Assembly (NCBI RefSeq): GCF_002855575.1
Contig: NZ_PKRQ01000006.1
Coordinates: 1 to 64,000 of the forward strand
Reading direction: 5' to 3'
Length of the DNA: 64,000 nucleotides
Origin: Tabrizicola sp. TH137
GTDB lineage: Bacteria > Pseudomonadota > Alphaproteobacteria > Rhodobacterales > Rhodobacteraceae
Shown here: positions 12,276-61,463 of the stretch, piece by piece
How positions within the stretch are numbered: the stretch's first letter is position 1
Layout: each line of letters starts with the position of its first letter
The notes under the pieces: generated by a model
Told to the model about the DNA's origin: nothing
Databases searched by the model: none
What the model saw: only the letters and a program-made list of their open reading frames with translations
Position numbers and translations under genes: made by a program

Positions 12276-12535
12276 GCGTTCTTCTCCTGCCCAAGCTTTC
12301 GGCAAACCTCGTCATCTTTTCGGCACTCGGCAAGACCGAGTTGACCAATTGCTCAGGTTTTCAGCGAAACCTCTGAAATTAATGACGTTTCCGTGACAAT
12401 CAGCCATGCGATTGCTGCATGGCAGCATTGCAGGCCCGGTCTATTGTGCAGGTGCAGCATATGCCCCATGTTTCCGGTAACAGCGCGACAGAACGTTGTC
12501 CTGACAACAGATGTAACAAACTGAGGCTGATCGAA
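12276..12535. promoter_or_regulatory. Divergent promoter region with a sigma-32-like promoter for the DUF1127/sRNA operon
   Basis: On the plus strand TTGTGC (12444-12449), a 14-bp spacer and CCCCATGT (12464-12471) match the heat-shock sigma factor pattern, in which the -10 is CCCCATNT. This places the transcript start near 12478, about 57 nt before the DUF1127 ATG. Rhodobacter CcsR operons are known to depend on RpoHI/RpoHII, so the match is meaningful. A 7-bp inverted repeat, GCCATGC/GCATGGC, lies at 12403-12423 and might be an operator or hairpin. The apbC promoter was not resolved. Confidence 0.55.
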
Positions 12536-12751
12536 ATGGCTTATGTCAACTCTTCCCGCGCCGCGTCCTTCTCGCTGGCTGACCGCATCTCTGGCTTCCT
12601 GGCCCAGTTCAAGGTGCAGATGGCTCGCCGCGCCGTGTACAACCAGACCGTCCGCGAACTGGTGCAACTGACCGATCGCGAACTGGCCGATCTCGGCATC
12701 GCCCGGGTCGATATCCCCACCGTGGCGCGCGAAGCCGCCTACGGAAAGTAA
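12536..12751 (+). CDS. DUF1127 small RNA-associated protein, CcaF1-like
   Basis: A 71-residue protein with a basic N-terminal half and a C-terminal DUF1127 domain (RELVQLTDRELADLGIARVD). The ATG at 12536 is preferred over an in-frame upstream codon because conservation starts there and it lies downstream of the predicted transcript start. In Rhodobacter sphaeroides the equivalent gene (RSP_6037, CcaF1) is the first gene of the CcsR1-4 sRNA operon, and its protein affects sRNA maturation and turnover. The same arrangement here, with CCUCCUCCC hairpins starting ten bases after the stop, supports the same role. Confidence 0.88.
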   Translation: MAYVNSSRAASFSLADRISGFLAQFKVQMARRAVYNQTVRELVQLTDRELADLGIARVDIPTVAREAAYGK

Positions 12752-12756
12752 GTTTC

Positions 12757-12829
12757 TTGCTGAACCCCACCTCCTCCCGGGGTTCATAGCAAAAGCGGCG
12801 GCGCTTCTCCTCCTCCCTGGCGCCGCCGC
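12757..12829 (+). ncRNA. CcsR/cuckoo-type sRNA unit 1 (two CCUCCUCCC-loop hairpins)
   Basis: Hairpin 1 (12761-12786) has the 8-bp stem TGAACCCC/GGGGTTCA and loop ACCTCCTCCC. Hairpin 2 (12795-12829) has a perfect 10-bp stem GCGGCGGCGC/GCGCCGCCGC with the loop TTCTCCTCCTCCCTG. The loop is complementary to Shine-Dalgarno sequences. Paired hairpins with this loop define the cuckoo RNA family, of which CcsR1-4 in Rhodobacter are members. The unit starts right after the DUF1127 stop, so it is expected to be processed from the same transcript. Confidence 0.85.
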
Positions 12830-12875
12830 ACTTTGATCCGGAAGCCGCGCTCCAGCGTATGCTTCCCAGACAGAT

Positions 12876-12947
12876 CCGAAGTCCCCCTCCTCCTCCCTGG
12901 GGACACGGAAAAGCGGCGGTTCCGCTCCTCCTCCCAGGAACCGCCGC
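12876..12947 (+). ncRNA. CcsR/cuckoo-type sRNA unit 2
   Basis: Hairpin 3 (12881-12904) has stem GTCCCC/GGGGAC and loop CTCCTCCTCCCT, extended below by CCG/CGG. Hairpin 4 (12913-12947) has a perfect 11-bp stem GCGGCGGTTCC/GGAACCGCCGC and loop GCTCCTCCTCCCA. The weak-then-strong hairpin order is repeated in each following unit. A 46-nt spacer separates it from unit 1. Confidence 0.85.
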
Positions 12948-12983
12948 ACCAAATTCCGGGGCCAAGACCCCAACGGCGTGCGA

Positions 12984-13052
12984 CAGGCCCCCTCCTCCTC
13001 CCTGGGGCCATCGGACCAGCGGCGACCCCCTCCTCCTCCCTGGGGTCGCCGC
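12984..13052 (+). ncRNA. CcsR/cuckoo-type sRNA unit 3
   Basis: Hairpin 5 (12986-13009) has stem GGCCCC/GGGGCC with loop CTCCTCCTCCCT. Hairpin 6 (13019-13052) has a perfect 11-bp stem GCGGCGACCCC/GGGGTCGCCGC and the same loop. The leader CAACGGCGTGCGACAGGCC is shared almost unchanged with unit 4, showing recent tandem duplication of about 107 bp. Confidence 0.85.
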
Positions 13053-13090
13053 ACCAAGTTTCGGGGCCAAAAGGCCCCAACGGCGTGCGA

Positions 13091-13161
13091 CAGGCCCTCC
13101 TCCTCCTCCCTGAGGGCCATCGGACCAGCGGCGGTTCCCACCTCCTCCCGGGAACCGCCGC
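13091..13161 (+). ncRNA. CcsR/cuckoo-type sRNA unit 4
   Basis: Hairpin 7 (13093-13118) has stem GGCCCT/AGGGCC with loop CCTCCTCCTCCCTG. Hairpin 8 (13128-13161) has a perfect 12-bp stem GCGGCGGTTCCC/GGGAACCGCCGC with loop ACCTCCTCCC. Compensatory changes relative to unit 3 (ACCCC/GGGGT versus TTCCC/GGGAA) preserve pairing, which argues that the RNA structure is under selection. Confidence 0.85.
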
Positions 13162-13194
13162 TCCCCGATCTCGCAAGCCGCAGCCAGGTTCGGA

Positions 13195-13264
13195 CCCGGC
13201 CATCCCCTCCTCCCTCGGCCGGGACGAAGACGCGACCCGGCCTTCCCCTCCTCCCTTGGCCGGG
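13195..13264 (+). ncRNA. CcsR/cuckoo-type sRNA unit 5
   Basis: Hairpin 9 (13195-13223) and hairpin 10 (13236-13264) share the 7-bp stem CCCGGCC/GGCCGGG, with 15-nt loops ATCCCCTCCTCCCTC and TTCCCCTCCTCCCTT. The two hairpins are near copies of each other and differ from units 1-4 in lacking the long GCGGCG stem, so this unit may be a diverged or partly duplicated member. Confidence 0.75.
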
Positions 13265-13275
13265 ACGCCTGCAAG

Positions 13276-13304
13276 CGGCGGCGCCCCTCCCTCGGGCGCC
13301 GCCG
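13276..13304 (+). terminator. Terminal hairpin of the CcsR-like array
   Basis: An 11-bp perfect stem CGGCGGCGCCC/GGGCGCCGCCG with the short 7-nt loop CTCCCTC. It has the family stem but only a remnant of the loop motif, and is followed by TTCTGCATT rather than a clear T-run. It is the last structure before the benE-type gene and probably ends the transcript, or is a half-copy of an sRNA unit. Confidence 0.5.
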
Positions 13305-13380
13305 TTCTGCATTCCGCGGCTTGCATCCCCCCCGCCCCCCGCCGATAGTCCCCGCCGAACGCACCCATCCGGCAGGCCCG

Positions 13381-14523
13381 ATGCGCCCCTCCCTTCTGTC
13401 CGCCGCCCTTGTCGCCGCCCTCGTCGGCTATGGCTCCACCATTGCCCTCGTCCTCGCTGCGGCCCAGGCACTGGGCGCAACGCCCGCACAGACCGCAAGC
13501 TGGGTGATGGGCGTCTGCTTCGCCAAGGCGCTTGGCAGCGCCCTCCTCTCCAGCCTCTACCGCGTGCCGGTCGTGCTGGCCTGGTCCACCCCCGGCGCGG
13601 CCCTGATCGCGGCGTCGTCAGGCTATGACATGGCCGAAGGCGTGGCGGCCTTCCTGCTGGCGGGCCTGCTGATCGCCGCCACGGGCCTGATCCGCCCCCT
13701 CGGCACGCTGGTCGGCAAGATCCCGGACGGCATCGCCGCCGCCATGCTGGCCGGCGTCCTGCTGCCTTTCGTCCTGAAAGGCGCAGGCGCAGCGCAGGCC
13801 GCCCCCCTGCTCGTCGCCCCGATGGTCGCGCTCTTTGCCCTTGTCCGGCTCAAGAACCCCGCCATGGCCGTCCTTGCCGCCCTGGCCGCAGGCCTCGCCA
13901 CCGCCTTCGCCAGCGGTGCGGCACTTCTGCCGCTCCTGCCCCCCATTCCGCCCACACCCACCCTCATCACACCCGAATTCCACTGGGCCGCCCTCATCGG
14001 CCTCGGCCTGCCGCTCTACCTCGTCACCATGGCCTCGCAGAACCTGCCCGGCTTCGCCACAATGCGCGCCGCAGGCTATGAGCCGCCCGTCGCCCCGGCC
14101 CTGACGGTCACCGGCCTGATCTCGGCCGCCACCGCCCTGATCGGCGCGCATACGGTGAACATGGCCGCGATCACGGCGGCCATCTGCATGGGCGATGACG
14201 TGCATCCCGACCGGGCACAGCGCTGGAAGGTCGGTCTGGCCTATGCGGGTGTCTGGGTGATCCTCGGCCTCACCGGGCCCGTCGTCATCGCGATCCTCGC
14301 CGCCCTGCCCCCCGCCCTGATGACCGCGCTGGTGGCGCTGGCGCTGCTCGGCCCCCTGACGGGCGCGCTGACCGGGGCCTTCGCCGCCCCCGACCAGCGT
14401 TTTGCCGCCACGATGACCCTTGCCGTCACCGGCGCGGGCGTGGCCTTCGCGGGCATCGGCGCGGCCTTCTGGGGGCTGCTGGCGGGCCTCGCGATCTGGG
14501 CCCTTGAACACCGCGCGCGCTGA
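13381..14523 (+). CDS. BenE-family benzoate/H+ symporter
   Basis: A 380-residue inner-membrane transporter of about 11-12 hydrophobic segments. The conserved STPGAALIAASSGY block near residues 63-77 and the EFHWAALIGLGLPLYLVTMASQN segment place it in the BenE family, whose members import benzoate-like aromatic acids with protons. The ATG at 13381 begins directly with the first membrane helix; upstream codons belong to the sRNA array. No aromatic catabolic genes flank it, so the substrate is uncertain. Confidence 0.85.
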   Translation: MRPSLLSAALVAALVGYGSTIALVLAAAQALGATPAQTASWVMGVCFAKALGSALLSSLYRVPVVLAWSTPGAALIAASSGYDMAEGVAAFLLAGLLIAATGLIRPLGTLVGKIPDGIAAAMLAGVLLPFVLKGAGAAQAAPLLVAPMVALFALVRLKNPAMAVLAALAAGLATAFASGAALLPLLPPIPPTPTLITPEFHWAALIGLGLPLYLVTMASQNLPGFATMRAAGYEPPVAPALTVTGLISAATALIGAHTVNMAAITAAICMGDDVHPDRAQRWKVGLAYAGVWVILGLTGPVVIAILAALPPALMTALVALALLGPLTGALTGAFAAPDQRFAATMTLAVTGAGVAFAGIGAAFWGLLAGLAIWALEHRAR

Positions 14524-17214: not shown

Positions 17215-17333
17215 GCGCCGGTCGCCGCCCTTGCGCTGCATTGCAGCAGGCCTAGAGTGACCCGGTCTGGCCCGGCCCCCGCACCCGGAGCAGACGAAAA
17301 GCCCGCCTGACCTGCCGATATCCGGAGAGAGTG

Positions 17334-20300
17334 ATGCCAGAGTTCCGCAAGATCCTCGTCGCCAATCGGGGCGAGATCGCCATCCGCGTGATGCGCGCCG
17401 CCAATGAGATGGGCAAGAAGACCGTCGCCGTCTTCGCCGAAGAAGACAAGCTGTCCCTCCACCGCTTCAAGGCCGACGAAGCCTATCGCATCGGCGAGGG
17501 CCTCTCGCCCGTCGGCGCCTATCTCTCGATCCCGGAAATCATCCGCGTGGCCAAGATGTCGGGGGCGGATGCCATCCATCCCGGCTATGGCCTTCTCTCC
17601 GAAAACCCCGATTTCGTCGAAGCCTGCGATCAGGCCGGCATCACCTTCATCGGCCCCCGCGCCGAAACCATGCGCGCCTTGGGCGACAAGGCCTCCGCCC
17701 GCCGCGTGGCGATCGAGGCGGGCGTCCCCGTCATCCCGGCGACCGAAGTGCTGGGCGATGACATGGCCCTCATCAAGAAACAGGCCGCCGACGTGGGCTA
17801 TCCCCTGATGCTCAAGGCAAGCTGGGGCGGCGGCGGGCGCGGCATGCGCCCGATCCTGTCGGAAGACGAGCTTGAATCGAAGGTCCGCGAAGGCCGGCGC
17901 GAGGCCGAGGCCGCCTTCGGCAATGGCGAAGGCTATCTCGAAAAGATGATCCAGCGCGCCCGCCATGTCGAAGTGCAGATCCTCGGCGACAAGCAGGGCA
18001 ATGTCTGGCACCTCTGGGAACGGGATTGCACCGTGCAGCGCCGCAACCAGAAGGTCGTCGAACGCGCCCCCGCCCCCTACCTGACGCAGGCCCAGCGCGA
18101 AGAGGTCTGCGACATGGCCAAGCGCATCACCCAGCATGTCGATTACGAATGCGCGGGCACCGTGGAATTCCTGATGGATATGGACACGGGCAAGTTCTAC
18201 TTCATCGAGGTGAACCCCCGCGTGCAGGTCGAACATACCGTGACCGAAGAGGTCACGGGGATCGACATCGTCCAGGCCCAGATCCTGATCGAGGAAGGCA
18301 AGTCGCTGGCCGAAGCGACCGGCGTTCCCTCACAGGCCGATGTCAAACTCAACGGCCACGCCCTGCAATGCCGGGTGACGACCGAAGACCCGCTCAACAA
18401 CTTCATCCCCGATTACGGGCGGCTGACCGCCTACCGCTCCGCAACCGGGAACGGCATCCGGCTGGACGGCGGCACCGCCTATGCGGGCGGCGTCATCACC
18501 CGCTATTACGACTCGCTGCTGGTGAAGGTCACGGCCCATGCCCAGACGCCGGAAAAGGCCATCGCGCGGATGGACCGCGCCCTGCGCGAATTCCGCATCC
18601 GCGGGGTGGCCACGAACATCGAATTCGTCATCAACCTCCTGAAACACCCCACCTTCCTCGATGACAGCTACACCACCAAGTTCATCGACACGACGCCCGA
18701 GCTTTTCGCCTTCAAGAAACGCCGCGACCGGGCCACGAAGATCCTCACCTATATCGCCGACATCACGGTGAACGGGCATCCCGAAACCGTCGGCCGCCCC
18801 AAACCCCCGGCCGAGGCGAAGATGCCAAAGCCGCCAAAGCTCCTGACCGAAACGCCCGCCACCGGCACCCGCAACCTGCTAGAACAGAAGGGCCCGCAGG
18901 CCGTGGCCGACTGGATGAAGGCGCAGAAGAAGGTCCTCATCACCGACACCACCATGCGCGACGGCCACCAGTCGCTCCTCGCCACCCGGATGCGCTCCAT
19001 CGACATGGTCCGCGTGGCCCCCGCCTATGCCGCCAACCTGCCGCAGCTCTTCTCGGTCGAATGCTGGGGCGGCGCCACCTTCGACGTGGCCTACCGCTTC
19101 CTCCAGGAATGCCCCTGGCAGCGCCTGCGCGACCTGCGCGCCGCCATGCCCAACCTGATGACCCAGATGCTGCTGCGCGCCTCGAACGGCGTCGGCTACA
19201 CCAACTATCCCGACAATGTCGTCCGCGCCTTCGTCCTTCAGGCCGCCAAGACGGGCGTCGATGTCTTCCGCGTCTTCGACAGCCTCAACTGGGTCGAAAA
19301 CATGCGCGTCGCCATGGATGCGGTGATCGAGGCGAACAAGGTCTGCGAAGGCACGATCTGCTATACCGGCGACATGCTCGATCCGAACAGGTCCAAATAT
19401 GACCTGAAATACTATGTGGACCGCGCCAAGGAACTGAAATCCGCAGGCGCCCATGTGCTGGGCCTCAAGGACATGGCCGGGCTTCTGAAACCCGCCTCCG
19501 CCCGCCTCCTCGTCAAGACGCTGAAACAGGAAATCGGCCTTCCGGTCCATTTCCACACCCATGACACCTCGGGTGCGGCGGCCGCCACCATCCTCGCCGC
19601 CTGCGATGCGGGCGTGGATGCCGTGGATGCCGCGATGGATGCCTTCTCGGGCGGCACCTCGCAGCCCTGCCTCGGCTCCATCGTCGAGGCGCTCCGCCAC
19701 ACCGACCGTGATACCGGGCTCGACATCAAGGCGATCCGCGAGATTTCCAACTACTGGGAACATGTCCGCGTGCAATATGCCGCCTTCGAATCCGGCCTGC
19801 CCGCCCCGGCCTCCGAAGTCTATCTGCACGAAATGCCCGGCGGCCAGTTCACCAACCTCAAGGCGCAGGCCCGCTCCCTCGGGCTCGAGGAACGCTGGCC
19901 CGAGGTCGCGCAGGCCTATGCCGACGCGAACCAGATGTTCGGCGATATCGTCAAGGTCACGCCTTCGTCCAAGGTCGTGGGTGACATGGCCCTGATGATG
20001 GTGGCCCAGGGCCTGACCCGCGCGCAGGTCGAAGACCCCAATACCGATGTGGCCTTCCCCGACTCCGTCGTGGACATGCTCAAGGGCAATCTCGGCCAAC
20101 CCCATGGCGGCTGGCCCGACGGCATCCTGAAAAAGGTGCTGAAGGGCGAAAAACCCCTCACCGAACGCCCCGGCAAGACCCTGCCCCCCGTCGATCTGGA
20201 AGAAACGCGGGCCAAGCTTTCCGCCGAACTCGGCGGCAAGGCGGTGGATGACGAGGATCTCAACGGCTACCTCATGTATCCCAAGGTCTTCCTCGATTAC

Positions 20301-20777
20301 ATGGGCCGCCACCGCCTCTACGGCCCGGTGCGCGCCCTGCCGACGAAGATCTTCTTCTACGGCATGGAACCCGGCGAAGAGATCACGGCCGAGATCGACC
20401 CCGGCAAGCAGCTTGAAATCCGTCTGCAAGCCGTGGGCGAAACGACCGAGGATGGCGAGGTCCGCGTCTTCTTCGAACTCAACGGCCAGCCCCGCGTGAT
20501 CCGCGTGCCGAACCGCGCCGTGAAGGCCAAGACGGCAGCACGGCCCAAGGCGCAGGACGGCAACCCCGCCCATATCGGCGCGCCGATGCCCGGCTCCATC
20601 GCCTCCGTGGCTGTCACCGTCGGCTCCAAGGTCCGCGCGGGCGACCTCCTGCTCACGATCGAGGCGATGAAGATGGAAACGGGCCTCCATGCCGACCGCG
20701 AGGCGGTGGTGAAGGCGCTCCATGTCCATGCCGGCAGCCAGATCGAGGCGAAGGACCTGCTGATCGAACTGGAATGA
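17334..20777 (+). CDS. pyc: Pyruvate carboxylase
   Basis: Single-chain biotin enzyme that makes oxaloacetate from pyruvate, bicarbonate and ATP. The 1147-residue product has the biotin carboxylase domain first (ILVANRGEIAIRV, HPGYGLLSENPDF, EVNPRVQVEHTVTEEVTG; about 1-460). The carboxyltransferase TIM barrel follows (from about 535, TTMRDGHQSLLATRMR, VECWGGATFDVAYRFL), then the central allosteric/PYC_OADA part. The C-terminal biotinyl domain carries Lys1113 in EAMKMET. ATG at 17334 follows a GGAGAG ribosome-binding site; a GTG one codon earlier is the alternative. Length is typical for the alpha4 form. Confidence 0.98.
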   Translation: MPEFRKILVANRGEIAIRVMRAANEMGKKTVAVFAEEDKLSLHRFKADEAYRIGEGLSPVGAYLSIPEIIRVAKMSGADAIHPGYGLLSENPDFVEACDQAGITFIGPRAETMRALGDKASARRVAIEAGVPVIPATEVLGDDMALIKKQAADVGYPLMLKASWGGGGRGMRPILSEDELESKVREGRREAEAAFGNGEGYLEKMIQRARHVEVQILGDKQGNVWHLWERDCTVQRRNQKVVERAPAPYLTQAQREEVCDMAKRITQHVDYECAGTVEFLMDMDTGKFYFIEVNPRVQVEHTVTEEVTGIDIVQAQILIEEGKSLAEATGVPSQADVKLNGHALQCRVTTEDPLNNFIPDYGRLTAYRSATGNGIRLDGGTAYAGGVITRYYDSLLVKVTAHAQTPEKAIARMDRALREFRIRGVATNIEFVINLLKHPTFLDDSYTTKFIDTTPELFAFKKRRDRATKILTYIADITVNGHPETVGRPKPPAEAKMPKPPKLLTETPATGTRNLLEQKGPQAVADWMKAQKKVLITDTTMRDGHQSLLATRMRSIDMVRVAPAYAANLPQLFSVECWGGATFDVAYRFLQECPWQRLRDLRAAMPNLMTQMLLRASNGVGYTNYPDNVVRAFVLQAAKTGVDVFRVFDSLNWVENMRVAMDAVIEANKVCEGTICYTGDMLDPNRSKYDLKYYVDRAKELKSAGAHVLGLKDMAGLLKPASARLLVKTLKQEIGLPVHFHTHDTSGAAAATILAACDAGVDAVDAAMDAFSGGTSQPCLGSIVEALRHTDRDTGLDIKAIREISNYWEHVRVQYAAFESGLPAPASEVYLHEMPGGQFTNLKAQARSLGLEERWPEVAQAYADANQMFGDIVKVTPSSKVVGDMALMMVAQGLTRAQVEDPNTDVAFPDSVVDMLKGNLGQPHGGWPDGILKKVLKGEKPLTERPGKTLPPVDLEETRAKLSAELGGKAVDDEDLNGYLMYPKVFLDYMGRHRLYGPVRALPTKIFFYGMEPGEEITAEIDPGKQLEIRLQAVGETTEDGEVRVFFELNGQPRVIRVPNRAVKAKTAARPKAQDGNPAHIGAPMPGSIASVAVTVGSKVRAGDLLLTIEAMKMETGLHADREAVVKALHVHAGSQIEAKDLLIELE

Positions 20778-60095: not shown

Positions 60096-61463
60096 ATGCC
60101 CGGAACCATGACTCTCGAAGCCCTGAAAGAAGCCGTCGCCCGCGGCGAGATCGACACCGTCCTTGTCGCCGCCATCGACATGCAGGGCCGCCTGATGGGC
60201 AAACGCTTCCACGCCGCCTTCTTCGTGAATGGCGGGCACAAGGAAACCCATTGCTGCAACTACCTCCTCGCCGTGGACATGGAGATGACCACTGTCCCCG
60301 GCTACAAGACCGCCGGCTGGGAACAGGGCTATGGCGATTACGTCATGAAACCCGACCTCGCCACCCTGCGCCCGCTCCCCTGGCTGCCCGGCACCGCGCT
60401 CTGCCTTGCCGACCTCCTCGACCACCACACGCATGAGGAAGTGTCGGTCTCCCCCCGCGCCATCCTGAAACGTCAGGTCGCCCGCGCCCGCGCCATGGGC
60501 TTCGATCCGATGATGGCCACGGAGCTTGAATTCTACATCTTCGAAAACGCCTACGAAAACCTGCGCGATCAAGGCTTTGCCAATCTCAAGCCGATCAGCA
60601 GCTATAACGAGGATTACCACATCTTCCAGACCACCAAGGAAGAGTCGCTCATGCGCGACGTCCGCAACCACCTCTATGGCGCAGGCATCCCCATCGAGAA
60701 CACGAAAGGCGAGGCCGACTCTGGCCAGCACGAAGTGAACTACCGCTATTCCGATGCGCTGGATACGGCGGACAACCACGTCATCGTCAAACAGGGCGTG
60801 AAGGAAATCGCGCATCTGAAAGGCAAGTCCGTCACCTTCATGGCCAAGTATGACCACCGCAAGGCCGGCTCCTCCTCCCATGTCCACCAGTCGCTCTGGA
60901 CGCTGGACGGCAAACCCGCCTTCTATGACGAGGCCGACGAACACGGCATGTCCGCCACGATGAAGCACTTCCTCGCAGGCCAGCTTGCCCATGCGCAGGA
61001 AATCACCGCCTTCCTCGCGCCTTACGTCAACAGCTACAAACGTTTCTGCATCGGCCTCTTCGCGCCGACAAAGGCCGTCTGGAGCGCGGACAACCGCACC
61101 GCAGGCTTCCGCGTCTGCGGCGAACATACCAAGGCCGTCCGTGTCGAATGCCGCATCCCCGGCTCCGACGTGAACCCCTATCTCTGCTGCGCGGCGCTTC
61201 TGGCGGCGGGCCTTGCGGGGATCGAGAACAAGCTCGAACTGGAACCCGAAATGAAGGGCGACATGTATGCCGCCCGAAACGCCCGCGAAATCCCGAAAAC
61301 CCTCCGCGCCGCCGCCGATCTGCTGCTCGGCTCCTCGATGCTGCGCGCGGCCTTCGGCGACGACGTGGTCGAACATTACCACCACGCCGCGCAATGGGAG
61401 ATCTCGGAAACCGACCGCGTCGTGACCGATTTCGAACTCCAGCGCCTTCTGGAACGCGCTTAA
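60096..61463 (+). CDS. Glutamine-synthetase-like gamma-glutamyl ligase
   Basis: A 455-residue member of the GS superfamily, in the branch of gamma-glutamylpolyamine/amine synthetases (PuuA, GlnA3/GlnA4, IpuC) rather than assimilatory GlnA. Features are DMQGRLMGKRF near the N-terminus, ATELEFYIFE with metal-binding glutamates, QHEVNYRY, KYDHRKAGSSSHVHQSLW with the ATP/metal histidine, and NRTAGFRVCGEH/RVECRIPGSDVNPYL. Several ATGs are possible (60066, 60084, 60096, 60108). 60096 is chosen for the purine-rich ATGAGG upstream. It probably adds glutamate to an amine using ATP. Confidence 0.9.
   Translation: MPGTMTLEALKEAVARGEIDTVLVAAIDMQGRLMGKRFHAAFFVNGGHKETHCCNYLLAVDMEMTTVPGYKTAGWEQGYGDYVMKPDLATLRPLPWLPGTALCLADLLDHHTHEEVSVSPRAILKRQVARARAMGFDPMMATELEFYIFENAYENLRDQGFANLKPISSYNEDYHIFQTTKEESLMRDVRNHLYGAGIPIENTKGEADSGQHEVNYRYSDALDTADNHVIVKQGVKEIAHLKGKSVTFMAKYDHRKAGSSSHVHQSLWTLDGKPAFYDEADEHGMSATMKHFLAGQLAHAQEITAFLAPYVNSYKRFCIGLFAPTKAVWSADNRTAGFRVCGEHTKAVRVECRIPGSDVNPYLCCAALLAAGLAGIENKLELEPEMKGDMYAARNAREIPKTLRAAADLLLGSSMLRAAFGDDVVEHYHHAAQWEISETDRVVTDFELQRLLERA

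Follow-up and report, generated by a model that had tools for sequence, protein, structure and literature searches.

The window analysed here, a stretch of DNA 64,000 nucleotides in length, contains a conserved ccaF1-CcsR operon of ordinary size, i.e., a gene for a DUF1127 protein followed by cuckoo RNAs, an arrangement known in the literature as the CIN1 locus (PMC10253847). Operons of this type are already known, and the array in the window is one more example, and a well-preserved one. We consider it very probable that this ccaF1-CcsR operon produces an RpoH-type transcript, that this transcript is processed by RNase E, and that the resulting CCUCCUCCC loops repress leaders that contain GGGAGGAG. 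The form of the loops suggests that they serve to mask the ribosome-binding sites of certain messages; most likely, processed small RNAs (sRNAs) induced under stress would use them to occlude the extended Shine-Dalgarno (SD) sites (GGGAGGAG) of a limited set of genes. The sequences themselves show the anatomy of the locus, its conservation, the covariation of its stems, the conservation of its promoter region, and candidate target sites; transcription, processing, stress induction, and repression are features that we infer for this locus from its relatives. Two points that go beyond the known operon type are worth keeping, namely a three-hairpin module at the end of the array and a PhaR-type site upstream of ccaF1.

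Anatomy and family identity of the locus

The features of the locus, with their coordinates in the window and their strand, are as follows.

12415..12425, + strand: CTGCATGGCAG palindrome, candidate operator matching CTGCNNNGCAG (sequence match to a published PhaR-binding sequence)
12444..12472, + strand: candidate RpoH-like promoter, TTGTGC (12444-12449), 14 nt, CCCCATGTT (12464-12472) (leader alignment)
12536..12751, + strand: ccaF1-like gene for a 71-aa DUF1127 protein (PF06568, 45.8 bits, cut-off 23.3)
12761..12786, + strand: hairpin 1, unit 1, weak, 8 bp, CCTCCTCCC loop (script; CcsR1 match 12752-12834)
12795..12829, + strand: hairpin 2, unit 1, strong, 10 bp, CCTCCTCCC loop (script; CcsR1 match)
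12840..12866, + strand: spacer hairpin without the motif, 6 bp (script)
12881..12904, + strand: hairpin 3, unit 2, weak, 6 bp, CCTCCTCCC loop (script; CcsR1 match 12873-12952)
12913..12947, + strand: hairpin 4, unit 2, strong, 11 bp, CCTCCTCCC loop (script; CcsR1 match)
12958..12971, + strand: spacer hairpin without the motif, 4 bp (computed folds)
12986..13009, + strand: hairpin 5, unit 3, weak, 6 bp, CCTCCTCCC loop (script; CcsR1 match 12976-13057)
13019..13052, + strand: hairpin 6, unit 3, strong, 11 bp, CCTCCTCCC loop (script; CcsR1 match)
13063..13078, + strand: spacer hairpin without the motif, 6 bp (script)
13093..13118, + strand: hairpin 7, unit 4, weak, 7 bp, CCTCCTCCC loop (script; CcsR1 match 13083-13166)
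13127..13162, + strand: hairpin 8, unit 4, strong, 13 bp, CCTCCTCCC loop (script; CcsR1 match)
13195..13223, + strand: hairpin 9, end module, weak, 7 bp, CCTCCTCCC loop (script; ar14 match 13186-13310 below cut-off)
13236..13264, + strand: hairpin 10, end module, weak, 7 bp, CCTCCTCCC loop (script)
13276..13304, + strand: hairpin 11, end module, strong, 11 bp, CTCCCTC loop, then TTCTGC (script; position of the terminator in siblings)

A preliminary description of this DNA had reported eleven perfect hairpins, ten of them with the motif in the loop, and a script recovered exactly these: eleven uninterrupted Watson-Crick stems of 6-13 bp span 12761-13304, and ten of the hairpins hold CCTCCTCCC (hence CTCCTCCC) in their loops, starting at 12770, 12809, 12889, 12927, 12994, 13032, 13102, 13141, 13206, and 13247, while the loop of the eleventh (13276-13304) has only CTCCCTC. 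Both motif and structure lie far beyond what shuffled sequences produce. The 9-mer CCTCCTCCC occurs 11 times in the window, always on the + strand (10 copies in the array and one at 60871), against a chance expectation with a mean of 2.8 and a maximum of 7 in 100 shuffles; when the ten motifs were held fixed and the remainder was shuffled, ten stems of at least 6 bp arose in none of 2000 shuffles. The fold of 12752-13310, at -297.5 kcal/mol, is 71 kcal/mol below the mean of 100 dinucleotide shuffles (-226.8, sd 6.6; z = -10.7). Spacer hairpins without the motif separate the units of the array. With regard to layout, the weak/strong pairs described previously were found for four units, but the supposed fifth pair consists of two similar 7-bp hairpins (hairpins 9 and 10, 13195-13223 and 13236-13264, with 33 of 41 aligned columns identical); the array is better read as four weak-strong pairs plus a weak-weak-strong end module, in which hairpin 11 is the strong member.

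The proposal that CcsR-like RNAs follow a DUF1127 gene was borne out by the 45.8-bit DUF1127 match, by unit 1, and by matches throughout the genus. Units 1 to 4 scored 99.7, 55.5, 54.4, and 42.3 bits, respectively, with the Rfam CcsR1 model (RF02791), which has a curated cut-off of 65.3 bits; the covariance model thus supports unit 1, while units 2-4 are matches below the cut-off. A CcsR1 match over the cut-off was present in 17 of 19 genus genomes (the host's own included) and a match at E <= 0.01 in 18 of the 19; G009 has a single weak match only. In a spread of 61 genomes from the family, searched with stricter filters, just 23 matched at E <= 1e-9 and 5 exceeded the cut-off, so the CcsR1 model does not cover the whole family. 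DUF1127 counterparts of 71-72 aa stand at 15 of 17 genus arrays; the exceptions in the script's output are G003 and G002, and one locus, L032, which may be the G003 contig, does encode a DUF1127 protein. Named Paragemmobacter species are among the closest relatives of the host (Paracoccaceae), the named relatives being Rhodobacter (Paragemmobacter) ruber, kunshanensis, and amnigenus and Gemmobacter (Paragemmobacter) straminiformis.

Within the host genome, a genome-wide search for paired motifs returned this array alone (5 matches), and the other DUF1127 genes were ruled out as array carriers, as all three lack CCTCCTCC within their loci of about 3 kb. A candidate second cuckoo locus at G000:C35:300246 (CcsR1, 22.5 bits) was rejected since it contains no CCTCCTCCC; inspected by eye, this weak match is presumably protein-coding sequence. 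Two further weak CcsR1 matches in the same genome (20.8 and 18.4 bits) were likewise accompanied by no CCTCCTCCC in the corresponding loci, L006 and L008.

The closest known system is the ccaF1-CcsR1-4 operon of Rhodobacter (Cereibacter) sphaeroides, with which the locus shares a gene for a 71-aa DUF1127 protein (PMC10253847 gives 71 aa as the length of R. sphaeroides CcaF1), tandem two-hairpin units with CCUCCUCCC loops downstream on the same strand, and, likely, an RpoH-type promoter region. By its published description, the R. sphaeroides operon has four CcsR units, whereas the window has four pairs and a three-hairpin end module, and units 2-4 of the window do not reach the CcsR1 cut-off. 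The R. sphaeroides operon is also drawn with a Rho-independent terminator, a feature that we did not treat as family-defining, whereas the window has no intact T-tailed terminator: no terminator-like site was called in 12300-13500, and the T tract after hairpin 11 is broken (TTCTGC). Siblings with the end module have a tail of four to five T residues after their last hairpin. Read-through past the broken T tract (13276-13310) toward a benE-like gene starting near 13381 is possible. For the R. sphaeroides operon, the literature describes an RpoHI/RpoHII promoter (given specifically in PMC10253847), co-transcription, and processing by RNase E and CcaF1 (PMC10253847, PMC8625941, PMC8307010, PMC7866481). 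In the window, an RpoH-type promoter would probably drive a single transcript that begins near 12480 and runs across ccaF1 and the entire array; if the locus behaves as in R. sphaeroides, RNase E would cut the 3' UTR into sRNAs of two hairpins each (three at the end), with the DUF1127 protein helping RNase E in this cutting and PNPase trimming the sRNAs. The CCUCCUCCC of each loop would pair with mRNAs whose SD sequence is extended to GGGAGGAG, and this pairing would hide the SD site from the ribosome and hence lower translation.

Loops with CCUCCUCCC on variable stems are also shared with alpha-r14/NfeR1 (SmelA075, RF02344), found in Sinorhizobium and relatives, which has three hairpins, as does the end module of the window (PMC10746234, PMC3927594); the cited study describes NfeR1 as Hfq-independent, whereas PMC7866481 describes CcsR1-4 as Hfq-dependent. 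However, the Rfam ar14 model (curated cut-off 58.8 bits) stayed below its cut-off throughout the window, with best scores of 50.8 (unit 1), 42.5, and 36.0 (end module); the end module passes the cut-off of neither CcsR1 nor ar14. None of the eight sibling loci scanned exceeded the ar14 cut-off either, with 42-53 bits for six of the eight end modules and 46-56 bits for unit 1; the model does not discriminate, because unit 1 of the siblings also scores. With all scores below the cut-off and unit 1 scoring alike, we do not take the end module for a true alpha-r14 RNA on the strength of this model. The locus further shares with the cuckoo RNA family an arrangement of adjacent hairpins, all with CCUCCUCCC, beside DUF1127 genes; this family, with adjacent CCUCCUCCC hairpins near DUF1127 genes, was reportedly described by Reinkensmeier and Giegerich in 2015.

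Array size, unit descent, and stem covariation among relatives

The 17 genus arrays (three of which, in G012, G013, and G014, run into a contig end) show the same order and hold 6-15 exact motif loops each. Among the best 80 of 109 named loci, several of which are the same contigs as genus genomes, so that the two surveys overlap, motif loops range from 0 to 16 and ten is the commonest value (16 of 80); at least ten motifs were found in 29 loci, at least eight in 50, and none in two, with eight of the 80 having less than 1500 bases of downstream sequence. The ten-loop array of the window is ordinary in size, and relatives reach 16 loops; its earlier designation as expanded is therefore not upheld. 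The largest array among the best 80 of 109 named loci is that of L091, a Tabrizicola sp. MAG, with 16 motif copies after a DUF1127 gene. Eight other loci (L061, L066, L069, L073, L076, L087, L089, and L092), which belong to Pseudotabrizicola, Cypionkella, and Pseudorhodobacter, have a DUF1127 gene followed by a single CCTCCTCCC only, perhaps representing a one-hairpin paralogue. Contigs break within the array at the G013 and G014 loci (L011 and L010, respectively), and draft assemblies may therefore undercount units.

Among the 14 genus arrays with a visible end, the end module was judged present in nine (G000, G003, G004, G007, G008, G010, G011, G016, and G018) and absent in five (G001, G002, G006, G015, and G017); 

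Units 3 and 4 of the window are identical in 90 of 106 columns, and the differences in their stems are compensated, in agreement with what had been noted for these units. Two further points in the preliminary description, i.e., continuing amplification in this genome and the reading of the unlike last unit as evidence for it, are not supported by comparison with relatives, as the likeness between units 3 and 4 (0.86) does not exceed that to their best matches in other species (0.86 and 0.88) and as the end module is common to 9 of 14 complete genus arrays. In a script alignment of 43 middle units, restricted to genomes that have two or more of them (units in G015 and G016 escaped the pattern used), the nearest unit was in another genome for 37 units and within the same genome for the other 6. 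Descent in place thus holds for most units; unit 2 of the window, for example, is 0.95 alike to unit 2 of G007. Recent copies do occur in siblings, with likeness of 0.97 in G011, 0.95 in G013, and 0.98 in G014, and also in G016.

The inner pairs of the strong hairpins form in 166 of 200 cells, whereas 2000 column shuffles averaged 123.2 and never exceeded 137; the register is off in some rows, which reduces the observed count, and column shuffling keeps relatedness in. This set comprised 40 distinct inner sequences from the 17 genus arrays, anchored on the outer GCGGCG/CGCCGC. On these alignments, the stems are free to vary as long as they are paired, and the loops are fixed.

Candidate targets and rival explanations

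The pattern GGGAGGAG-N4-10-ATG has 30 matches in the host genome versus 6 for a backward control and 19 versus 4 in G004; two control SD types gave 15 matches (5 backward) and 18 matches (0 backward), so the excess over the backward pattern is a general property of SD sites. Computed duplex energies for the loop averaged -19.1 kcal/mol (range -17.0 to -24.9) with 14 GGGAGGAG leaders, compared to -9.3 kcal/mol (range -6.7 to -13.6) with 18 leaders that have the two other SD types, a difference that holds partly by construction because the candidates were picked for the GGGAGGAG 8-mer. Strong pairing to GGGAGGAG sites and weaker pairing to other SD types speaks for a limited set of targets. Among the candidates are ABC components (binding proteins, permeases, and an ATPase), a formaldehyde-activating-enzyme-like protein, and ribosomal protein S8, for which the GGGAGGAG site is identical in G004. 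Solute-uptake genes make up 6 of 13 Pfam-annotated GGGAGGAG genes in the host genome and 5 of 14 in G004, versus 2 of 9 and 2 of 14 in the two control sets; this enrichment (11/27 vs. 4/23) is not significant (Fisher one-sided p = 0.067, two-sided 0.12) and is suggestive only. These counts rest on a scan that took 18 of the 30 host matches (two rows overlap one site), 15 of the 19 G004 matches, and 12 of 15 and 16 of 18 control matches, leaving out matches with short or no open frames; proteins without a Pfam match (5, 1, 3, and 2, respectively) were left out of the counts, and DabA, a carbon transporter outside the ABC class, did not enter the uptake count.

One alternative is that the array is a general titrator, in which many loops that mimic the anti-Shine-Dalgarno of 16S rRNA act as a sponge that lowers translation globally under stress, with copy number itself being functional. 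Each transcript would carry ten motif loops, and the CCUCCU of the loop is also part of the conserved 16S 3' end; GGATCACCTCCTT matches at two places in the genome, candidate 16S 3' ends. A 16S 3'-end pattern with TTTCT had no match in the genome and a looser pattern had four, putatively 16S. However, pairing of the loop to the two other SD types is weak compared to GGGAGGAG leaders, whereas the 16S tail gives computed energies of -7.5 to -20.5 kcal/mol on these same control leaders, and loop number varies from 6 to 15 within one genus; we thus regard a general titrator as unlikely. A further view, that the array is a recently amplified, lineage-specific repeat under active duplication and with no settled function, could draw on the likeness of units 3 and 4 and on copy numbers that differ between relatives, but it is already disfavoured and has to be judged very improbable given that the nearest unit is typically in another genome, that the stems covary, and that the end module is common within the genus.

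It is also conceivable that the hairpins act mainly in cis, as a 3' UTR structure that stabilises or tunes ccaF1 mRNA and recruits CcaF1, with little activity in trans. The array lies 3' of ccaF1, the leader of ccaF1 itself pairs weakly with the loop (-6.0 kcal/mol, computed), and the effects of CcaF1, according to PMC8307010, include maturation and turnover of the co-transcript. Pure stabilisation, however, leaves an invariant loop on freely varying stems unexplained, and the same paper reports that CcsR1-4 target flhR mRNA, which makes a role largely in cis very unlikely. The literature supports trans action of such RNAs, given this report on flhR and the finding in Sinorhizobium that redundant CCUCCUCCC motifs of NfeR1 repress ntrB at its translation initiation region, as well as ABC-transporter mRNAs (PMC10746234). 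Repression in trans of a limited set of GGGAGGAG messages is the reading that we prefer.

The region upstream of ccaF1

The putative promoter is conserved: ATTGTGCA is identical in 15 of 15 aligned genus leaders and CCCCAT is present in 13 of 15, while 37 of the best 80 of 109 named loci have CCCCATNT in the 260 nt upstream, a raw count. TTGTGC-N14-CCCCATGTT resembles the RpoH consensus.

The palindrome upstream of this candidate promoter matches CTGCNNNGCAG, which PMC12542648 gives as the R. sphaeroides PhaR-binding sequence. CTGCNNNGCAG is found upstream of 15 of 17 genus arrays and, among the best 80 of 109 named loci, no more than 260 nt upstream in 48 (and absent in 32), versus 7 of 1304 control windows from the same loci, although these 48 loci are related and hence not independent. 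In the window itself the pattern is no rarer than chance (4 matches, 2.24 expected). The host genome encodes a PhaR-type protein (PF07879, 96 bits); among the openly accessible papers listed for the subject, no title or abstract dealt with a link of PhaR to DUF1127 or to a Rhodobacter sRNA. We tentatively propose, as a possibility somewhat short of an even chance, that PhaR, a repressor that binds PHB granules, sits on CTGCNNNGCAG some 110-135 bp ahead of ccaF1, so that CcsR RNAs would be released according to PHB state while RpoH contributes control by stress. If the palindrome is bound by PhaR, a stress RNA cluster would be linked to PHB storage, and the array would set uptake and central carbon genes by stored carbon as well as by stress. 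A second CTGCNNNGCAG match (CTGCATTGCAG) is located at 17236-17246, approximately 95 bp before an ORF at 17331-20777 that we take, by eye, to encode pyruvate carboxylase, and is possibly another PhaR-type site.
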